A stretch of DNA of 51,451 bases from Eubacterium sp. GTDB taxonomy: Bacteria > Bacillota > Clostridia > Lachnospirales > Lachnospiraceae. The DNA lies in the NCBI GenBank assembly GCA_022769325.1, contig JALEKC010000140.1, forward strand, positions 1-51,451. Reading direction: 5' to 3'. The notes below the pieces were generated by a model, which worked only from the letters and a program-made list of their open reading frames with translations, was not told the origin of the DNA and did not search any database. Both the position numbers and the translations under genes were made by a program. Of this stretch, positions 4,612-32,103 are shown in pieces; position 1 is the stretch's first letter, and each line of letters opens with the position of its first letter.

Positions 4612-4742
4612 TTGAATTACACTCCTTCCAAAAAAGTACATTTCTATTTTATATGATTCTTTATTTCTTTGCAATAAAATACTAGTCTTTTGGTGAAAAA
4701 AATATTATAATAGAAGTAAGATAAATGAAGGGAGGCACTTCC

Positions 4743-6257
4743 ATGGTTATTACCACCTATGCAGCTATTGATGTCGGCTCCGATGCCCTTTCCATGAAAA
4801 TATATGAAGTGTCAAAAGGGAAAGGAATTGTGGAACTTACACATATTCGCCATAAACTGTCCATTGGGTCAGAAATTTTTGCCAGACATCAAATTACCTA
4901 TAAAACATTGTCTGAAATCTGTCGTGTGTTAAAAGATTTCAAAAAAATAATGGAAGAATATCATGTCACTTCCTATCAGGCATTTAGCGGCGATGCTTTG
5001 CGTGAAGCCTCCAATCGCCTGATTGTTCTTGACCAGATTAAATTGCAGACGGATATCAAAGTAAAGATACTCAGCAATAGTGAACAACGTTTTTTATACT
5101 ACAAAGCAATTTCCATGAAAGAATCATACTTTGATGATTTGATTGATGAAGGGGCTTTAATTGTCGACATGAGTGCCGGCAGTGTCCAGCTGTCCTTTTT
5201 CCAAAATGGGATATTGGAATTTACGCAAAATCTCAAACTTGGCTCCACCCGAATCAATGAACTTCTTCATACCATGGAATCGGAAGTTTTTCATTATAAT
5301 GAACTGATTTTGGATTATCTGGATAAAGACCTTACTACCTTTTACAATTTGAATCTCAGTGAGAAAAAGGTATGTCATATCATTGCTGTGGGAAGCAATC
5401 TGCCGGAAATCAAAGCCAAACTTTCCCAGCGAAATCCGGATTTTCAGGGATTGATTTCCAGAAGAGAGTTTGAAAAAATCAAAAATGCCAGCCATCTGGG
5501 GCTTTCCCATATGGACCAGATTTTGCCCACCTTACTCTTATTCCGGAAAATCGCATCCCTTACCAAATGCAATGATTTATACATCTCTGCCATTGATTTG
5601 TGTGACAGCATGGTGGCTGATTATGCAGAGCGTCGGGAAAGGATTCGTCCGGCTCATGATTTTACCAAAGATATCATTGAATGTGCGAAAAATATTGCCA
5701 TCCGTTATCATGCAGATATGGCTCATATCGAAAATGTCACCTACCTTTCCACCGAAATTTTCGATAACATTCGAAAACTTCATGGACTGGGAAAACGGGA
5801 GCGTCTCCTGTTACAAATTGCGGTGATTCTTCACAGTTGTGGTGCCTTTGTCAACATGGCACAAACCCGTGAAAATTCTTATAAAATTATTATGAGTACG
5901 GAAATCATAGGGATTTCCCATATTGAGCGGGTCATGATTGCCAATATTGTGCGTTACAATGACGAATTTTTCCCCAGTTATCCGGATATTGATGACGAAG
6001 AAATTACCAAAGACCAATACATTACCATTGTCAAACTGTGTGCCATTTTAAAACTAGCCAATGTCCTTGACAAAAGCAATCATCAACGAATTCAGAAAGT
6101 ATGTATGAATTTAAAAGAAAATTCCCTGCAAATCACTGCCTATACCTTGGAGGATATTACATTGGAAAAAGGATTATTCCACCATAAGGCAGATATTTTT
6201 GAAGAAGTATTTGGCATTCGTCCTGTACTTAAAAAGAAAGAAGGTAAGACATCATGA
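4743..6257 (+). CDS. ppx: Ppx/GppA family exopolyphosphatase with C-terminal HD-like domain
   Basis: AAIDVGSDALSMKIYE, ILSNSEQ, VDMSAGSVQLSFF; overlaps ppk by 4 nt; GGGAGG RBS. Confidence 0.88.
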   Translation: MVITTYAAIDVGSDALSMKIYEVSKGKGIVELTHIRHKLSIGSEIFARHQITYKTLSEICRVLKDFKKIMEEYHVTSYQAFSGDALREASNRLIVLDQIKLQTDIKVKILSNSEQRFLYYKAISMKESYFDDLIDEGALIVDMSAGSVQLSFFQNGILEFTQNLKLGSTRINELLHTMESEVFHYNELILDYLDKDLTTFYNLNLSEKKVCHIIAVGSNLPEIKAKLSQRNPDFQGLISRREFEKIKNASHLGLSHMDQILPTLLLFRKIASLTKCNDLYISAIDLCDSMVADYAERRERIRPAHDFTKDIIECAKNIAIRYHADMAHIENVTYLSTEIFDNIRKLHGLGKRERLLLQIAVILHSCGAFVNMAQTRENSYKIIMSTEIIGISHIERVMIANIVRYNDEFFPSYPDIDDEEITKDQYITIVKLCAILKLANVLDKSNHQRIQKVCMNLKENSLQITAYTLEDITLEKGLFHHKADIFEEVFGIRPVLKKKEGKTS

Positions 6258-8341
6258 CAAAATTTTACAATCGTGAATTAAGTTGGCTGGGATTTAACTA
6301 TCGGGTTCTCTCCGAAGCACGTGACAAAAATATTCCCCTTATGGAACGCTTAAAATTTTTAAGTATTACCGCATCCAATCTGGATGAGTTTTTTATGATT
6401 CGTGTGGCATCTTTGAAAGACATGGTTCATGCCAAATATACCAAAAAGGATATTTCCGGATTGACGCCGAAAGAGCAGCTTGCTATCATTTCCACCGGAA
6501 CCCATGAATTGGTAGAAAAACAATACAATACCTATAACCGCTCTTTCTTGCCATCCTTAAAGCATCAGGGACTCAATATCATTACCCAATATGAATCCCT
6601 GACAAAAGAGCAGGCAGACTTTGTGGACCGCTATTTCATGCGAGAAGTATATCCGGTTCTGACTCCTATGGCCGTGGACTCTTCCCGCCCCTTTCCTTTG
6701 ATTCGCAATAAATCCTTAAATATTGCAGCCCTGTTGATGGACAAAAAGCGAAAGGGCACTATTGATTTTGCCACGGTTCAGGTTCCTTCTGTTTTGCCAA
6801 GAATTGTCACAATTCCCTCTGAAAAAGAAGGAGAAACCTGTATTATTTTATTGGAACAAATCATAGAAAAAAATATACAAAAATTATTTTTAAATTATAA
6901 AGTACTGGATGCCACTCCTTACCGTGTTATGCGTAATGCCGATTTAACCATTGATGAAGATGAGGCGGCGGATCTTTTAATTGAGATTGAGCGTCAGTTG
7001 AAAAAGCGTCAATGGGGTGAAGCCATTCGGCTGGAAGTGGAACAAGGGATTGATAAACGCCTTTTGAAAATTCTGAAAAAGGAGCTTCACATCCAACAGG
7101 ACGATATCTTTACCATCCGTGGTCCTCTGGATCTGACATTTCTCATGAAAGTATATGGTATGGAGGGCTTTGACCATTTGAAAGAAAAGCCATATCTTCC
7201 ACAACCTCCCAAGGGGCTTGATATGGAGAAAGATTTGTTCGAGCAGATTCGCCAAAAGGATATTTTGCTCCATCATCCTTATGAGACTTTCGATCCGGTG
7301 GTGAATTTTGTCCGTCTCGCTGCCAAAGACCCGGATGTTCTTGCAATCAAGCAGACGTTATACCGTGTTAGCAGTAATTCCCCGATCATTGCTTCTCTGG
7401 CCCAGGCGGCAGAGAATGGCAAGCAGGTTACGGGTTTGGTAGAATTAAAAGCTCGTGTTGATGAAGAAAATAACATTGTCTGGGCAAGAAAGTTGGAAAA
7501 AGCCGGCTGTCATGTAATTTACGGACTGGTTGGATTAAAGACCCATAGCAAAATCACCCTGGTGGTTCGCAGGGAAGAAGAAGGCATTCGGCGCTATGTC
7601 CATTTAGGAACGGGAAATTACAACGATTCCACGGCAAAACTTTATACCGATATGGGAATGTTTACTTGCAAGCGTGCCTATGGCGAAGATGCCACCGCAG
7701 TATTTAATATGCTCTCCGGATATTCGGAACCCCTATCCTGGAACAAATTGGCACTTGCTCCCAACTGGCTTCGTTCTCGTTTTGTGGAGCTTATCAATCG
7801 CGAACGAGATTATGCTGCCATGGGAAAACCCGCACGTATCGTGGCAAAAATGAATTCTCTTTGCGATGCCGGCATCATTGAAGCCCTTTATGAAGCTTCC
7901 GCTGCCGGTGTAGAAATCGATTTAATCATTCGGGGAATCTGCTGTCTCAAGCAGGGGGTACCCGGCATGAGCGAAACCATTCGCGTCCGCTCCATCGTTG
8001 GTACTTTTTTGGAGCATTCCCGCATTTTCTTCTTTGAAAATGATGGAAATCCGGAAATATATATGGGAAGTGCTGACTGGATGCCTCGTAATCTGGATAA
8101 GCGTGTTGAAATTCTCTTCCCGGTGGAAGACGAAGATTTAAAAGATGAGATTCTTCATATTTTGAAAACTCAGCTGGCAGACAATACAAAAGCCCATCTT
8201 CTGCAACCGGACGGACTCATCAATCCGGAAAAAGACGGACTTGTCAAAGTATATGGTGGCTTTTATAAAAAAGCAGACCGTCGCGGTCATACCGCCGTCT
8301 GCTCCCAAATGCAATTTTGTAAAGAAGCATTGCGCAAGTAA
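6254..8341 (+). CDS. ppk1: Polyphosphate kinase 1
   Basis: FYNRELSWLGFNYRVL, GLVELKARVDEENNI, YVHLGTGNYN, MGSADWMPRNLDKRVE. Confidence 0.96.
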   Translation: MTKFYNRELSWLGFNYRVLSEARDKNIPLMERLKFLSITASNLDEFFMIRVASLKDMVHAKYTKKDISGLTPKEQLAIISTGTHELVEKQYNTYNRSFLPSLKHQGLNIITQYESLTKEQADFVDRYFMREVYPVLTPMAVDSSRPFPLIRNKSLNIAALLMDKKRKGTIDFATVQVPSVLPRIVTIPSEKEGETCIILLEQIIEKNIQKLFLNYKVLDATPYRVMRNADLTIDEDEAADLLIEIERQLKKRQWGEAIRLEVEQGIDKRLLKILKKELHIQQDDIFTIRGPLDLTFLMKVYGMEGFDHLKEKPYLPQPPKGLDMEKDLFEQIRQKDILLHHPYETFDPVVNFVRLAAKDPDVLAIKQTLYRVSSNSPIIASLAQAAENGKQVTGLVELKARVDEENNIVWARKLEKAGCHVIYGLVGLKTHSKITLVVRREEEGIRRYVHLGTGNYNDSTAKLYTDMGMFTCKRAYGEDATAVFNMLSGYSEPLSWNKLALAPNWLRSRFVELINRERDYAAMGKPARIVAKMNSLCDAGIIEALYEASAAGVEIDLIIRGICCLKQGVPGMSETIRVRSIVGTFLEHSRIFFFENDGNPEIYMGSADWMPRNLDKRVEILFPVEDEDLKDEILHILKTQLADNTKAHLLQPDGLINPEKDGLVKVYGGFYKKADRRGHTAVCSQMQFCKEALRK

Positions 8342-12705: not shown

Positions 12706-14700
12706 TTACTCTTCATCCTCTTTTTTTACTTCCGCTGTCTCAATGACAAATTTTACATTTCCATCCATACCCTCAGAAATACCGGAGAAGTTTGTATAAT
12801 CTTTGGACATATCAACCAGTTTTTCCAAACGATTCTTCATGGTCTTCATATCCTCTTCATATACCTGATTTAATTTTTGAATGCCCTCACGGTCAAATCT
12901 ATTCATTCCTTCGTATAAATCATCGGCACCTTTCTGCAATTTCGTGATACCCTCTGCCACTTTTCCTGTGGCTGTATGAAGTTGACTACTTCCTTTTTTC
13001 AATTTTCCGGCACCCTGAATCAATTCTTTGCTTCCTGATTTTACCGATTTGCTTGCTTTCAAAATTTTCTTGGCACCTGCTAAAAGTTTACGATCATTAC
13101 TGCTAAGAGTCTTGCTTCCCTCACTTAGTTTTTTTACATTTGCTGTAAGGGTACCAATACTTGATGTCATTTTTTGGTCAGCACTTCGAAGAGCCGAAGA
13201 ATTTTGGGAAATTTCCTGGGCTCCACTTAATACTTTTTTGATACCGGCTGACACCTGGCTTGCACCGGTTTTCAATTGACTTTCCGCATTGGTTGCTGTC
13301 ACAAGGGCACCCACACTGGCTTTCTGTCCCTGATACAATTCTTCCAATTTTTGTACATAAGCAAGAATGGTTGCTTTTTGTGTAGAATCTTCAATTTGTG
13401 CTGCTTGAGCTTTCAAACCGTCCGCAATTAATTTGTAATTGTCATAAGAACTTTCCAACGTCCCCAAATTTTCATTCAGTGTTCCAATGCCCCCGATGAC
13501 AGCATCGGCACCGGAAGTCAGCTGATTGGCTGTAGTTGGTTCTGCCAGGGTGTCTACTCCTTTTGTATAAGCCTGAATTCCATCGGAAAATTCTTTATAG
13601 GAAGAAGGCATATTTTTTACTGCCTCATATAATTTCTGATTGCCCTCTGTCACCTGTTTTGCACCATTGACATAACTTTGCGTTCCCTTAGCCAAAGAAT
13701 CTACGCCGTCGGTATATTCCTTGACACCTTTTTGTAATGTTTCTCCTCCTTTCGCCAATTTTTTTATGCCTTTGTTTAGTTCTTTTTCTCCATCCTGATA
13801 GTCCTCAAATTTATCCTCTAATTCTCCCATTTTTTCAGATAATTTCTGGGAGCCCTGAACCAAGTCGTCGGAAGAATCCACCAATTTTTTCAAATTATCT
13901 TCTAAGTCATCCAAATCATCGATATCATCCAATTCCAAATCACTCAACATACTGGCACTTGCAAAGGTGAAGGTGTTTCCAATGGAAAAATCTGTCACCT
14001 CCGCTGTTATGGTAAATCCATCGGGAATTTTATCCGCATCTTCTCCTTCCAAATCAAGGCTTTCTGACATACCAGGCATACCAAAGCCAACTACAATACT
14101 GTTGGAACCTTCATTGATCATTTTACCATGTTCCACTTCTACATTGGTAAATTTATCATCGGGAAGAATGACTCCGGTTGCCATAACAAAAGGTGTATAC
14201 ATCTCCTGTTCTTCTCCCTCAATTGTCTGAGTCGTTTTGGAATAATTGCGATAGGTTACCTTCATCGTCAGCTTACCGCTTTTTCCCAGCAAGTCTTTGG
14301 CAGATATTTCCTTTCCATCCAGTTCATACTGAATTTCCACACCCACAGGGAGCTCTTTATCTGTCGTTCCCTGATAATAAATATCCTCAGAACCCGCATT
14401 CCATTTTACTATATCTCCCTCCTGGGTAAAGGTCTCCTCGCCTTTCACATTCTGGATGTCTTTCAATTCCGTTTCATCCTGGAGAGTACCCTGTATCCCG
14501 GCATTTTTCAGCCAATTGGATACTGTAATTTTGGTTGTCGCACCGCTCTCATCTGCATTTACAAAGACAGATTCATCTTTTGATATTTTTTGTGCTGCTG
14601 CATAAGTTCCATTGGAAACCACCAGACTTGTCACCAATAATCCGGATATTAATGTTTTACTGATACGATTTATTTTTCGATTTCGATTCATAATATTCAT
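12706..14700 (-). CDS. Secreted xxxLxxG heptad-repeat coiled-coil protein (YhgE/Pip-like repeats), probable partner of the MMPL transporter
   Basis: Signal peptide, then L..G heptads (LNKGIKKLAKGGETLQKGVKEYTDGVDSLAKGTQSYVNG; LSEGSKTLSSNDRKLLAGAKKI). Adjacent to the MMPL gene. Confidence 0.82.
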   Translation of the reverse strand: MNIMNRNRKINRISKTLISGLLVTSLVVSNGTYAAAQKISKDESVFVNADESGATTKITVSNWLKNAGIQGTLQDETELKDIQNVKGEETFTQEGDIVKWNAGSEDIYYQGTTDKELPVGVEIQYELDGKEISAKDLLGKSGKLTMKVTYRNYSKTTQTIEGEEQEMYTPFVMATGVILPDDKFTNVEVEHGKMINEGSNSIVVGFGMPGMSESLDLEGEDADKIPDGFTITAEVTDFSIGNTFTFASASMLSDLELDDIDDLDDLEDNLKKLVDSSDDLVQGSQKLSEKMGELEDKFEDYQDGEKELNKGIKKLAKGGETLQKGVKEYTDGVDSLAKGTQSYVNGAKQVTEGNQKLYEAVKNMPSSYKEFSDGIQAYTKGVDTLAEPTTANQLTSGADAVIGGIGTLNENLGTLESSYDNYKLIADGLKAQAAQIEDSTQKATILAYVQKLEELYQGQKASVGALVTATNAESQLKTGASQVSAGIKKVLSGAQEISQNSSALRSADQKMTSSIGTLTANVKKLSEGSKTLSSNDRKLLAGAKKILKASKSVKSGSKELIQGAGKLKKGSSQLHTATGKVAEGITKLQKGADDLYEGMNRFDREGIQKLNQVYEEDMKTMKNRLEKLVDMSKDYTNFSGISEGMDGNVKFVIETAEVKKEDEE

Positions 14701-25548: not shown

Positions 25549-27603
25549 TTATTTTTCTGCCAAAAGTTCCATGATTTCGTTGCTACGCAAAACAAATTCA
25601 GTCATTGCTTCCGGCTCAAGCGGTTTATGGCCAAGCATCGCCAAATCATAAAGCTGCTTACAGAATAAATCCGTCTTATCTCCGTCTTTATGATTTTCAA
25701 CATATTGAACCAATGGATTGGCTACATTCAGCACAAGAGTTTCGCCGCCAAAGTCTCCCATGGCTCCCATACCATTCATGGCATACATCTTCATCATATC
25801 TTGCATACGACGAGTTTCCTCAGACATGGTAATCATGGATGCAATCTTCTCATTTTTCATCTTTTCTACTCTCACATCCAGATTCTCTTTTCCAAGTGCT
25901 TTGCGGAAAATCTCTGTCAGGGCATCTTTCTTTTCTTTGATTTCTTCCTCACTCATTTCTTCCACAAAATCTTCCGTAACCTGGGCATCAATTCTCTGGA
26001 ACTTAATATTATCTTCGCCCATTTCCAAATTGGAGATAAATGGCTGATCAATATTGTGGGTCAAAACAAAGGCATTTTTGTTTTCCTCCCGGAACATATT
26101 AATATACTGACTTTGCTGCTTTTTATCTGTCACATAGTAGATTACCGTCTTTGGTGGTTCCTGTGGCTCACTATCGTTCTCTTCTTCGCCCTTTTCCACC
26201 ACTTCTGCTTCCGGAACGTCTACGTTTTCCAGATATTCTTTCATCGTCATATAGTTATCATCCAAATCCTTAAATAAGATATAGTCTTTCATCTTACTCT
26301 TGAACTTTTCATCTTTCAGGCAGCCGTATTTGATAAATGGGCTGATATCATCCCAATACTTCTCGAAGTTTTCTCGGTCTGTCTTGCACATTCCGCTCAA
26401 TTTGTCTGCCACTTTTTTCGTGATATAATCCGCAATTTTTGTCACAAATCCATCATTTTGCAACGCACTTCTTGAAACATTCAAAGGCAGATCCGGACAG
26501 TCGATAACACCCTTTAAGAGCATTAAAAATTCCGGTATAACTTCTTTGATATTGTCTGCGATAAACACCTGGTTATTATAAAGTTTGATAATTCCTTCCG
26601 CATTTTCATATTCCAGATTTACTTTCGGGAAGTATAAAATACCTTTTAAGTTAAATGGATAATCCATATTCAGATGAATCCAGAACAATGGCTCCTTATA
26701 ATCCTGAAATACTTTGCGATAAAACTCTTTATACTCTTCCTCGGTACATTCGTTTGGATGCTTTGTCCACAAAGGATGGGTATCGTTAATCGGCACCGGA
26801 CGCTTCAAAATCTTTGTCTTTTTAACCGGTTCTTTCTTTTCTTCATTTTCTCCCTCTTCCCCTTCTTCTCCGTCTTTTTCTGCCGCTTTTGGCTCTTCCA
26901 CAATTTCCTCAATAACCGTATCATCCTCTGTCACTTCTTCACTTGGAATGGTTTCATATTGAGGCTCAGCATTTTCATTGGTAAGGAAAATCTCAACCGG
27001 CATGAAGGAACAATATTTTTCCAACACTTCCCGGACACGATACTCATTGGAGAATTCATAACTGTCTTCATTCAAGTGAAGAATAATCTCGGTTCCAACC
27101 GTATCTTTGTCACTGTCACTCATTTCAAATTCAGTTCCACACTCAGACTCCCAATGAATTGCCTGTTCCCCTTCCAAATAAGAACAAGTATTGATTTCCA
27201 CCCGGTCAGCCACCATAAAAGCAGAATAAAATCCAAGTCCAAAATGTCCGATAATCTGATCTTCACTGGATTTATCCTTATATTTTTCCAGGAAAGCCGT
27301 TGCACCGGAAAACGCAATCTGATTGATGTACTCTTTCACTTCATCTTCCGTCATACCGATACCGTTGTCAACAAAACGAATGGTTTTTTCTTCTGCATTC
27401 ACATACACTTCCACTTTTTCTTTATAATCATCCGGAAGTGCTGTCTCGCCGATCATCTCCAGCTTTTTCAATTTGGTAATGGCATCGCAGCCGTTGCTGA
27501 CAAGTTCGCGAATGAAAATATCATGATCCGAATACAACCATTTCTTAATAATCGGAAAAATATTTTCGGAATTAATGGCCAAACTACCTTGCTCTTTTTT
27601 CAT
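25549..27603 (-). CDS. htpG: Molecular chaperone HtpG (Hsp90)
   Basis: IFIRELVSNGCDAITKLKKL, FVDNGIGMTEDEV, IGHFGLGFYSAFMVADRVE. Confidence 0.96.
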   Translation of the reverse strand: MKKEQGSLAINSENIFPIIKKWLYSDHDIFIRELVSNGCDAITKLKKLEMIGETALPDDYKEKVEVYVNAEEKTIRFVDNGIGMTEDEVKEYINQIAFSGATAFLEKYKDKSSEDQIIGHFGLGFYSAFMVADRVEINTCSYLEGEQAIHWESECGTEFEMSDSDKDTVGTEIILHLNEDSYEFSNEYRVREVLEKYCSFMPVEIFLTNENAEPQYETIPSEEVTEDDTVIEEIVEEPKAAEKDGEEGEEGENEEKKEPVKKTKILKRPVPINDTHPLWTKHPNECTEEEYKEFYRKVFQDYKEPLFWIHLNMDYPFNLKGILYFPKVNLEYENAEGIIKLYNNQVFIADNIKEVIPEFLMLLKGVIDCPDLPLNVSRSALQNDGFVTKIADYITKKVADKLSGMCKTDRENFEKYWDDISPFIKYGCLKDEKFKSKMKDYILFKDLDDNYMTMKEYLENVDVPEAEVVEKGEEENDSEPQEPPKTVIYYVTDKKQQSQYINMFREENKNAFVLTHNIDQPFISNLEMGEDNIKFQRIDAQVTEDFVEEMSEEEIKEKKDALTEIFRKALGKENLDVRVEKMKNEKIASMITMSEETRRMQDMMKMYAMNGMGAMGDFGGETLVLNVANPLVQYVENHKDGDKTDLFCKQLYDLAMLGHKPLEPEAMTEFVLRSNEIMELLAEK

Positions 27604-27691: not shown

Positions 27692-27718
27692 TTAGCACTC
27701 ATTAAAGTTGAGTGCTAA
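27692..27718. promoter_or_regulatory. CIRCE element (HrcA operator) TTAGCACTC-N9-GAGTGCTAA
   Basis: Exact 9-9-9 consensus. Confidence 0.95.
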
Positions 27719-28157
27719 CAATTCCGTGTTTACTTAAGAATTTCAGGCAGTTTTCGTCCCAAATAATTTCTTGATTTCGTTCCAGAGAGAATTCCGCAGA
27801 AGTATAAGAAGACAGACAGGAAAGTTTTCCTGCTTCATATTGAATTCGCAGTCCGCCACAATCTCCATTTTCCCTATAATGTACGAATTGAATTTTCATA
27901 AATTCCGGTGTCTGCTTTCCCTTTATCAAGTCAAATACAATCGGACGCAACAACTTCCAGGGAACGTATTCGAAACCCTGATATTTTTCTGCCTCTTCCG
28001 GCGAAAGCCATTCATGACACAAATTTCCTTGAAAACGAATGGACACGAGGGTACGAATTTCTGCCATACTCACACAAAATTTGTCAAAGGTTTCCTGAAG
28101 AAGCAACTGTCCCATAAAAGGTTTCACATCTTCAATTTCATACATTTTCATACACAC
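27702..28157 (-). CDS. Conserved hypothetical protein (DUF5721-like by recall)
   Basis: Coherent 151-aa ORF with plausible composition. Family name from memory, not searched. Confidence 0.65.
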   Translation of the reverse strand: MCMKMYEIEDVKPFMGQLLLQETFDKFCVSMAEIRTLVSIRFQGNLCHEWLSPEEAEKYQGFEYVPWKLLRPIVFDLIKGKQTPEFMKIQFVHYRENGDCGGLRIQYEAGKLSCLSSYTSAEFSLERNQEIIWDENCLKFLSKHGIVSTQL

Positions 28158-28460: not shown

Positions 28461-30308
28461 TCAACGCGCCGGTTTCCTGCGGATTTTCTTTTTAGATATC
28501 CGCGGATTCTCCGGCGTTTTGACAGTGTCAATACATTCAAATACCGCAATACTTCGTGATTCCATTTTATATTTTTTTACCACAATCTCATTCTCTGCGT
28601 TCTCTCTTCCGGTATCCAAAATACATTTCCAGCGCTTGTCCTTCTCCAAGGCCGGAAAAAAGAAAGTATGACTCTCCCAATGCATATTAAATATCATATA
28701 GATAGAATTTCCCCCATAATAGACTCCATAAAACAAAATACCCAAATCTCTGCTATAATAAGAAAAATCTGCTTCCCAGGGTTCTATCCCATGAGCCGAT
28801 ATAGCCGGTATTCCATAGCCTTTGCTGTCAATGGGCATCATGGTTTCCCTCCTGTGATATAGAGTATGTTCTTTTCGAAAGGCAATCAAATGACGGACAA
28901 AGTCGTAAATATCCTTGTTCTTTTCGATTAAATTCCAGTGCAGCCATGTAGTGGCATTGTCCTGACAATAAGCATTATTATTGCCTCGCTGGGTCTGACC
29001 AAATTCATCTCCCGCCAATATCATCGGTGATGCCAGGCCCAATAGCAGCATGGCAAGAGCATTTTTCGTCTGTTTGCGCCGCATCTGTAAAACGGATTTT
29101 TTGCGGCTGCTTCCCTCCTGTCCACAATTCCAGCTGTAATTATACTGAGTTCCATCTTGATTCTTCTCTCCATTGGCCTCATTGTGCTTAATATCATAAG
29201 ATACTAAATCCCGTAATGTAAAACCATTTTTTTGCGTAATGTAATGAACCCCCGCACATCCCGCTGCATCCCTGCAAAAGGCTTCATAAAAACCTGCCAC
29301 CTGTCCTTCGTCACTTTTCAGATAACGTCTGGCAACGGTCTGATAGGCATCATTAAATTCGGCCACTGTTCTTTGTCCTGCCACCTGTCCCATGGTTTTC
29401 CAGCCGGCTCCCAAAAACTTACATTGTCTGAGAATGGGATCCTGGCTCAACCATGCTTCCGACACGACCGATGTATCAATCAAAAAACCATCCACATGAT
29501 ATTCCATCACATAATATCTCAGACAGCGAAGAATAAACTGTGGCGGGCATTTTTGAAAATGCATATCGAAAATGACATTCATTCCCATCTGGTGAATTCG
29601 ACGAATCATGGTTTTGCACTCCTCCACGGCCCGTTCCGGACAGGACGCATAAGAGGCTTTGGGGGCAAAATAGCAGGCATCTTCCGTATATCCCCAATAA
29701 TTTATTTTTCCTTCCTGCTTTTCCATGATTTCATTAAAATCATACAAAGGAAGAAATACAATGGTATTGATACCAAGATATTCCAGTTCTTTTAATTTTT
29801 CACAAAATCCCAGATACGTCCCCGGTGCCTCCACTGCGGAACTGCTGTGTCTGGTAAATCCACGAAGATGACATTGATATAAAATCATGTCTTCAAACGG
29901 TACTTTTTTCCGGTTTTCTCCCTGCCAGTCAAAGTGAGAAAAATCAAATTTTCCACGCAATTTTCCCCTTTTGCCAAATACATTTCGCCCGGCAGTTGCC
30001 TTCATATAGGGATCCTGGCAAATCTGCTTTCCGGTCTCAAACACATATTCACACTGTTGCAAAAAATCACATATGCCTTCTCCCGTCAATCGTATGCCAT
30101 ACAAATCCGGTGCAGTCAACGAATCGCAGGGAAACATTTTTATTTTTTTCAAAGCAGCTTTATTCTGATATAATACCAATTGGCATTCCTTTTGTTCTTT
30201 CGCAAAAAATACGATTTCCACGCTTTTTCCGTCTTCGGAAACCGTAACTCCTTCCACCAGGCCTTTTGCCGGTTGTAACTCAAATTGCACAAATTCTTCT
30301 TGTCTCAT
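28461..30308 (-). CDS. GH13 family protein, GlgX/isoamylase-like, with degenerate catalytic motifs
   Basis: GFTLRDLVSYDIKHNEANGEKNQDGTQYNYSWNCGQEG and LAGDEFGQTQRGNNNAYCQDNATTWLHWNL are isoamylase/GlgX-type. Catalytic residues appear substituted (see findings). Confidence 0.88.
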   Translation of the reverse strand: MRQEEFVQFELQPAKGLVEGVTVSEDGKSVEIVFFAKEQKECQLVLYQNKAALKKIKMFPCDSLTAPDLYGIRLTGEGICDFLQQCEYVFETGKQICQDPYMKATAGRNVFGKRGKLRGKFDFSHFDWQGENRKKVPFEDMILYQCHLRGFTRHSSSAVEAPGTYLGFCEKLKELEYLGINTIVFLPLYDFNEIMEKQEGKINYWGYTEDACYFAPKASYASCPERAVEECKTMIRRIHQMGMNVIFDMHFQKCPPQFILRCLRYYVMEYHVDGFLIDTSVVSEAWLSQDPILRQCKFLGAGWKTMGQVAGQRTVAEFNDAYQTVARRYLKSDEGQVAGFYEAFCRDAAGCAGVHYITQKNGFTLRDLVSYDIKHNEANGEKNQDGTQYNYSWNCGQEGSSRKKSVLQMRRKQTKNALAMLLLGLASPMILAGDEFGQTQRGNNNAYCQDNATTWLHWNLIEKNKDIYDFVRHLIAFRKEHTLYHRRETMMPIDSKGYGIPAISAHGIEPWEADFSYYSRDLGILFYGVYYGGNSIYMIFNMHWESHTFFFPALEKDKRWKCILDTGRENAENEIVVKKYKMESRSIAVFECIDTVKTPENPRISKKKIRRKPAR

Positions 30309-30409
30309 TCATCCAGCCATCCTTTATCTTTAATACTTCTATTATACATAAATGTCCGGATTCTCACAATAATATTTTTTCTTCTTTCTATATTATTTTG
30401 GAAAAACAC

Positions 30410-30437: not shown

Positions 30438-30492
30438 AGGTAATTAGATAACCAAATAAACGGATGTTTTACATCAAAATATGGAGGAAAAT

Positions 30493-32103
30493 ATGATTCA
30501 GGCAAATAATGTTACTCTGCGCTTTGGAAAAAAAGCGCTCTTTGAAGAAGTCAATATAAAATTTACCGAAGGAAACTGCTATGGTATCATTGGTGCCAAC
30601 GGAGCAGGAAAATCCACCTTTTTGAAAATCCTTTCCGGAGAACTGGAGCCAACCCAGGGTGATATCAGCATTACACCGGGGCAGCGTCTTTCGGTTCTGG
30701 AGCAGGATCATTTTAAATATGATGACTGTGTTGTATTGGATACCGTGATTATGGGAAATCAGCGTCTTTATGATATTATGAAGGAAAAAGATGCGATTTA
30801 TGCCAAGGAAGATTTCACGGAAGAGGACGGTATTCGCGCCAGCGAACTGGAAGGCGAATTTGCCACCATGAATGGCTGGGAAGCCGAATCCGATGCTGCC
30901 ACTCTTCTCAACGGACTGAATATCGATACCGAACTTCATTATAAACAAATGAGTGAACTCTCCGGTAGCGAAAAAGTCAAAGTTCTCCTTGCAAGGGCTT
31001 TGTTTGGCAATCCGGACATTCTTCTTTTAGATGAGCCTACCAACCATTTGGACTTAGATGCCATCCGTTGGCTGGAAGAATTTTTGATTAATTTTGAAAA
31101 TACTATTATCGTGGTATCCCATGACCGTTATTTCTTAAATAAAGTCTGCACCCATACCGTTGACATCGACTATGCGAAAATGCAATTATATGCCGGAAAC
31201 TACGATTTCTGGTACGAATCCAGCCAGTTGATGATCAAGCAGATGAAGGAAGCCAATAAAAAGAAAGAAGAAAAAATCAAGGAACTTCAGGATTTTATCC
31301 AGCGCTTCAGCGCCAATGCTTCCAAATCCAAACAGGCTACTTCGAGAAAACGTGCCTTGGAAAAAATCGAACTGGATACGCTCCGTCCTTCCAGTCGAAA
31401 ATATCCTTATGTTGATTTCAAGCCAAACCGGGAAATTGGAAATGAAGTACTTACCGTTACCAATCTTTCCAAAACCATCGATGGAGAAAAAGTCCTTGAC
31501 AACGTATCCTTTACAGTGGGCCATGATGACAAAATTGCATTTGTGGGTTCCTATGGAATCGCTGCCACCACATTATTCCAGATTCTCGCGGGAGAGATGG
31601 AGCCGGATGAGGGGGATTACAAATGGGGAATTACCACCAGTCAGGCCTATTTTCCGAAGGATAATACAAAGGATTTTGACAGCACCGATACCATCGTGGA
31701 CTGGTTGATGCCTTATTCTCCGGAAAAAGATGCCACCTATGTCCGTGGTTTCTTAGGACGCATGCTTTTCTCCGGTGACGACGGTTTGAAAAAGGTCAAC
31801 GTTCTTTCCGGAGGTGAAAAAGTCCGTGTCATGCTGTCCAAGATGATGATGCTTGGTGCCAATACTCTTATTTTAGATGAGCCTACCAACCACCTTGACA
31901 TGGAGTCCATCACTTCCGTCAACAATGGGTTAATCAAATTCCCTGGTGTTGTTTTATTTACTTCCCAGGACCACCAATTTATCCAGACCATTGCCAATCG
32001 TATCATCGAACTTACCCCAAATGGTATGATTGATAAAGTATCCACCTATGACGAATATCTTGACAGTGACGAGATGGCCCGTAAACGTCAGGCTTTGAGC
32101 TGA
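30493..32103 (+). CDS. ABC-F family ATP-binding protein (YbiT/YkpA-like)
   Basis: Two NBDs, GANGAGKSTFLKIL, two LDEPTNHLD motifs, linker between them. Confidence 0.93.
   Translation: MIQANNVTLRFGKKALFEEVNIKFTEGNCYGIIGANGAGKSTFLKILSGELEPTQGDISITPGQRLSVLEQDHFKYDDCVVLDTVIMGNQRLYDIMKEKDAIYAKEDFTEEDGIRASELEGEFATMNGWEAESDAATLLNGLNIDTELHYKQMSELSGSEKVKVLLARALFGNPDILLLDEPTNHLDLDAIRWLEEFLINFENTIIVVSHDRYFLNKVCTHTVDIDYAKMQLYAGNYDFWYESSQLMIKQMKEANKKKEEKIKELQDFIQRFSANASKSKQATSRKRALEKIELDTLRPSSRKYPYVDFKPNREIGNEVLTVTNLSKTIDGEKVLDNVSFTVGHDDKIAFVGSYGIAATTLFQILAGEMEPDEGDYKWGITTSQAYFPKDNTKDFDSTDTIVDWLMPYSPEKDATYVRGFLGRMLFSGDDGLKKVNVLSGGEKVRVMLSKMMMLGANTLILDEPTNHLDMESITSVNNGLIKFPGVVLFTSQDHQFIQTIANRIIELTPNGMIDKVSTYDEYLDSDEMARKRQALS

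Follow-up and report, generated by a model that had tools for sequence, protein, structure and literature searches.

A GlgX/isoamylase paralogue widespread in Lachnospiraceae without catalytic machinery: a possible glucan-binding protein

The window analysed here (the whole stretch of 51,451 nucleotides from Eubacterium sp.) encodes a 615-residue descendant of GlgX that, according to a confident structural prediction, is well folded and devoid of catalytic machinery. The protein has lost its catalytic motifs and domain B, belongs to a clade of single origin that evolves under purifying selection, and is carried independently of active GlgX. For its role we lean, with somewhat more belief than doubt, towards a non-catalytic protein that binds α-glucan and serves glycogen metabolism as an adaptor or regulator, and that would have arisen once in Lachnospiraceae; its glucan binding, its adaptor function and its connection with glycogen are what we infer from descent, from the pattern of conservation and from the near-universal glycogen genes described below.

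Homology to GlgX and loss of the active site

The interval that a sequence-only reading had singled out (29220–29570, minus strand) corresponds to residues ~247–363 of the 615-residue open reading frame at 28461–30308. In a profile search the protein matches TIGR02100 (GlgX) with E = 8.8e-94 and 314.9 bits, and it matches PDB isoamylases, among them plant ISA1, TreX, Streptomyces GlgX and E. coli GlgX, with E-values down to 2e-75, which rules out a chance similarity. The score does not reach the TIGR02100 equivalog cut-off (640.9 bits). Homology in sequence and fold extends across the N domain, the barrel and the C domain, and the tree joins the protein to canonical GlgX, in keeping with descent within GH13_11; the CBM48 model matches just 4 of 46 clade members. 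The alignment to GlgX/isoamylase proposed in the earlier reading thus holds, and all the motifs quoted there were located, including GFTLRDLVSYDIKHNEANGEKNQDG and LAGDEFGQTQRGNNNAYCQDN.

The same reading had described all four catalytic motifs as degenerate, and the alignment to E. coli GlgX confirms it (Table 1). Asn265 and His266 are replaced by Gln and Lys, Arg334 by Leu, Glu371 by Ala, His442 by Lys and Asp443 by Asn (E. coli numbering), with the stretch around region IV reading TQKNGF (358–363), and the nucleophile position, Asp336, is the only one of these that still carries its residue. The window protein therefore lacks the Asp-Glu-Asp triad, the region I His, the region II Arg and the region IV His that mark an active debrancher. 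All seven positions (N265, H266, R334, D336, E371, H442 and D443) are invariant in the aligned active enzymes and scattered in the dead ones. None of the 129 members of the dead clade has the D/E/D triad, 86 of them have none of its three residues, and positions 371 and 443 vary freely. Loss of the region II Arg had been recognised correctly, and the Asp said to be kept in that motif is indeed present here, but it is no feature of the clade, since 127 of the 129 members carry another residue at the nucleophile position, most commonly Asn, and only two an Asp. Four dead-clade proteins (L088, L087, L145 and L177) keep E371 and D443 with the nucleophile Asp gone, and are possible intermediates of the loss.

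A further loss had escaped the earlier reading. In GH13 enzymes the β3–α3 loop constitutes the domain B segment, and in GlgX it carries the Asn-His pair of region I and the GNTLN segment. About 44 residues of this loop are deleted in the window protein. Its length is 8–9 residues in 129 of 129 dead proteins against 52–55 in 28 of 28 canonical GlgXs, so that the loop of ~50 residues expected of an active GlgX is found in none of the 129. With the loop gone, the -1 subsite has been dismantled along with domain B. The AlphaFold2 model of the window protein (pLDDT 93.5, pTM 0.92) contains all eight barrel strands and its best Foldseek matches are isoamylases; the structure prediction suggested with the earlier reading thus returned a high-confidence GH13 fold, predicted to be intact. 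The assignment as a pseudo-debranching enzyme is supported by the absence of the triad from every one of the 129 homologues, the uniform loop deletion and the single clade.

Table 1. Features of the window around the dead GlgX paralogue (window coordinates; residue numbers of the 615-residue protein).
Feature	Position	Strand	Basis or remark
Dead GlgX paralogue, coding sequence, 615 aa, ATG start	28461..30308	-	ORF list, translation, TIGR02100, AlphaFold2 (pLDDT 93.5)
Region I remnant DMHFQK, residues 248–253	29550..29567	-	Alignment block; loop lengths in 129 dead versus 28 canonical proteins
Region II GFLID, residues 274–278; Arg lost, nucleophile Asp present by exception	29475..29489	-	Alignment
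Region III AGWK, residues 301–304; acid/base Glu lost	29397..29408	-	Alignment
Region IV QKNG, residues 359–362; His and stabilising Asp lost	29223..29234	-	Alignment
β2–α2 loop segment, residues 203–220; N203 and K217 fixed only in dead clade	29649..29702	-	
β7–α7 loop, residues 362–400	29109..29225	-	Degree of conservation similar to that in active GlgX
β8–α8 loop, residues 432–458 (GDEFGQTQRGNNNAYCQDN...), conserved	28935..29015	-	Entropy-based conservation 0.78 dead, 0.84 live
Putative sigma-70-like promoter TTGTGA-17-TATAAT, 33 bp upstream of the dead-gene ATG	30341..30369	-	Consensus scan match only
ABC-F type ATPase, two ABC_tran domains; close to dead gene in many relatives	30481..32103	+	
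DUF5721 protein; syntenic in the window's own clade	27702..28157	-	
HtpG (Hsp90); syntenic in the window's own clade	25549..27603	-	

Distribution, selection and genomic context

The dead form turns out to be the normal state of the family and no peculiarity of the window's genome. Counted by sequence verification in 150 genomes drawn from Lachnospiraceae, it is present in 119 (about four in five) and active GlgX in 46; both forms occur together in 42 genomes, the dead form alone in 77 and the active form alone in 4, and active GlgX is accordingly undetected in 65% of the carriers (77/119). An intact second glgX, which the sequence-only reading had proposed to look for, was found neither in the window's genome (87% complete) nor in a 99%-complete congener. 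Among 196 genomes of the order and 341 of the class no dead form was found outside the family, unbroken hits without domain B being limited to Lachnospiraceae, and the canonical-type GlgXs checked from other families (eight or fewer) have R-D-E-H-D intact. The public contigs matched are labelled Lachnospiraceae apart from a few MAGs (e.g. Ruminococcus sp.). Two Ruminococcus-titled records (L045 and L044) fall inside the Lachnospiraceae dead clade, and their MAG titles are probably wrong. In a tree of 82 sequences all dead proteins fall into a single clade with an SH-aLRT of 100, for which one origin is the simplest reading. One genome (G126, contig C6) has a canonical GlgX ~2 kb from the dead paralogue (the L062/L123 pair), with an ABC-F gene between them; this arrangement may have been left over from the duplication that gave rise to the two.

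Four close pairs of dead genes give dN/dS values of 0.05–0.15 (pairs below 70% identity are saturated and were excluded), and intact frames of ~600 residues are found in ~120 genomes. Together with the synteny, the uniform loop deletion and the intact predicted fold, these values bear out the earlier suggestion of selection on the fold rather than decay. Across 46 neighbourhoods the gene order is kept among distant members in two main forms (neighbours lacking a Pfam call were named by reading their sequences). The first runs GltX, UvrD, a DUF1292-like protein, a sugar-binding lipoprotein, the dead GlgX and a DUF5662-like protein; in the second ABC-F adjoins the dead GlgX, accompanied by DUF5721 and HtpG in the window's clade. 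No glycogen gene adjoins the dead gene in these neighbourhoods. The order is conserved, but the neighbours are housekeeping genes (GltX, UvrD, ABC-F, DUF5662-like, HtpG), and the neighbourhood was rejected as a functional clue. The putative promoter sits in the gap between the dead GlgX gene and the divergent ABC-F gene. Elsewhere in the window, a gene for a Ppx/GppA-type exopolyphosphatase followed by one for polyphosphate kinase (4725–8341, plus strand) lies ~20 kb from the dead GlgX gene, polyphosphate being the other classic storage polymer, and a 664-residue ORF beside an MMPL-family transporter (12706–14700, minus strand) has no Pfam match at E<=1e-10.

The window's genome encodes GlgA, GlgD, GlgP, two GlgB and two GH13_20-like proteins, and GlgA, GlgD and GlgP are present in the 99%-complete congener; searches of these two genomes (the former 87% complete) revealed no GlgX and no type I pullulanase. 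The two GH13_20-like proteins (L002 and L003) are candidates for the removal of α-1,6 branches in the genus. GlgA and GlgD occur in ~148 of the 150 family genomes, and this near-universal presence of glycogen genes leaves the co-occurrence of the dead gene with glycogen synthesis without statistical power. GlgA and GlgP are still present in complete genomes that do not carry the dead gene, which is therefore not essential for glycogen metabolism. A link with glycogen is suggested by descent and by the near-universal glycogen genes, not by a specific association.

The conserved half of the cleft and its possible function

Per-residue conservation was compared between dead and active proteins for each loop at the barrel mouth, with the strands taken from the model. 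The mean loss relative to active GlgX is 0.08 for the loops after β1, β2, β7 and β8 and 0.38 for those after β3–β6. This difference was reached in 0 of 20,000 permutations and persists with the catalytic positions omitted, with the caveats that residues are taken as independent in the permutation, so that its strength is overstated, and that the dead set is the more diverse one. In the β7–α7 loop, modal-residue conservation amounts to 0.77 in the dead and 0.79 in the live proteins (0.71 and 0.81 on the entropy-based measure). Since the β7, β8, β1 and β2 loops neighbour each other, conservation extends over roughly half of the former substrate cleft; the other half (β3–β6) has been freed from constraint and shortened. 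Fixation in the dead clade but not in active enzymes is seen at N203, K217, E381 and D494, with position 502 a weaker case. The retained loops also include the conserved aromatic residues W205, W393 and W455. The pattern is as expected if half of the glucan cleft is kept for binding, and it accords with the glycogen binding or scaffolding proposed in the earlier reading.

In the mechanism that we propose, a GlgX/isoamylase paralogue would have arisen once in a Lachnospiraceae lineage, retaining the three-domain isoamylase fold and losing the catalytic triad, the -1 subsite and domain B. The β7-β8-β1-β2 half-cleft that remains would bind α-glucan, as chains or branch points of glycogen, and the protein would act as an adaptor or regulator instead of a hydrolase. 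The retained half-cleft, the residues fixed in this clade and the near-universal glycogen genes would make a non-catalytic glucan site the simplest explanation, although the conserved loops could have been kept for folding or for a protein interface and not for sugar. Most carriers have no detectable active GlgX, so the protein would act alone on the polymer or partner another enzyme. More tentatively, and at somewhat less than an even chance, it may be a stand-alone pseudo-isoamylase that needs no isoamylase partner to bind glycogen and to shape or organise the particle, converging with ISA2 in lost catalysis and not in mechanism.

Our ranking favours the glucan-binding adaptor or regulator and places a subunit of a different enzyme next. 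The conserved face would then be a docking surface through which the protein regulates or stabilises, within a heteromer, a non-GlgX enzyme such as GlgP, GlgB or a maltodextrin-type GH13_20, an arrangement that we consider unlikely. The window's genome supplies possible partners in GlgP, two GlgB and two GH13_20-like proteins, and noncatalytic subunits are established in ISA2 (PMC12510319) and in GlgD for GlgC (PMC10395257), but none of the 46 neighbourhoods contains a fusion or an operon with GlgP, GlgB or GH13_20. A bacterial equivalent of ISA2, that is, a dead subunit partnering active GlgX, is more doubtful still. In plant ISA2, a GH13_11 paralogue bound to active ISA1, four or more of the five catalytic residues are changed (PMC12510319); Foldseek places ISA1/ISA2 complexes among its top matches, and the ~2 kb spacing of the two genes in G126 would suit such a pair. 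As a general model it is refuted, because 65% of the carriers have no detectable active GlgX (77 of 119, the window's genome and the 99%-complete congener included), and it is conceivable only for the 42 genomes with both forms; the dead proteins, moreover, lack domain B and hence followed their own path of divergence.

The strong conservation of part of the cleft, with invariant acidic residues (D367, D385, E398, D434, E435 and D450) and E381 fixed only in the dead clade, could also be taken as a sign that the protein is still an enzyme whose catalytic residues have migrated or which has evolved a different reaction. This is improbable: the invariant acidic residues except E381 are conserved in active GlgX as well, where they do not belong to the triad, 127 of 129 members have no Asp at position 336, positions 371 and 443 are unconstrained and domain B is missing. 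Sensing of a second messenger, as by the GlgX of Streptomyces venezuelae that binds c-di-GMP, has very little to recommend it beyond the match of the model to c-di-GMP-bound SvGlgX, as the contacts E47, R49 and R56 of ExR(X)6R and R438 (PMC9530166) have no counterparts in the window protein in the alignments, and c-di-GMP binding is not general among GlgXs (PMC9530166). A decaying pseudogene or an assembly artefact, to which the vanished catalytic motifs might point, is effectively refuted by the open ~600-residue frames in ~120 genomes, the dN/dS of 0.05–0.15, the uniform loop deletion and the synteny, neither relaxed selection nor frame breaks having been found.

Relation to known systems and implications

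The chloroplast isoamylase ISA1 is an active starch-trimming enzyme with a full motif set. It provides the best structural match of the window protein (PDB 9j60 and 4okd; TMq up to 0.85), in which, unlike ISA1, the catalytic motif set is lost. With bacterial GlgX and TreX (GH13_11; 2wsk, 2vnc and 7u39) the dead protein shares the fold, the domain order and the β7 and β8 loops, and it differs from them in the absence of the triad, the -1 subsite and domain B and in its TIGR02100 score (315 against a cut-off of 641). Like plant ISA2 (9j6x and 9xvi) it is a GH13_11 paralogue with an isoamylase-like fold that has lost the triad and has long been kept; unlike ISA2, the dead clade is bacterial, has a separate origin and a deleted domain B loop, and most of its carriers are without an active GlgX to partner. 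GlgD, a GlgC paralogue (PMC10395257), is likewise derived from a glycogen enzyme, with a regulatory role and a near-universal presence in the same genomes, but it belongs to a different enzyme family and has a known partner in GlgC.

Since the defining catalytic features are absent, it would be wrong to annotate the dead protein as a GlgX enzyme despite its GlgX/isoamylase descent. No description of a bacterial inactive isoamylase was found in the open-licence papers searched, where only plant work was met. In surveys of gut bacterial genomes, glgX homologues are taken as a measure of the capacity for debranching, two glgX being listed for Blautia obeum, for example (PMC10395257); because the only GlgX homologue of most sampled carriers is dead, such predictions can be wrong, and the route of glycogen debranching in these bacteria comes into question. 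Why a noncatalytic isoamylase should persist is a question raised by work on ISA2 (PMC12510319), and a second, independent case in bacteria, lacking an ISA1-like partner, would permit direct tests of partner-independent functions.
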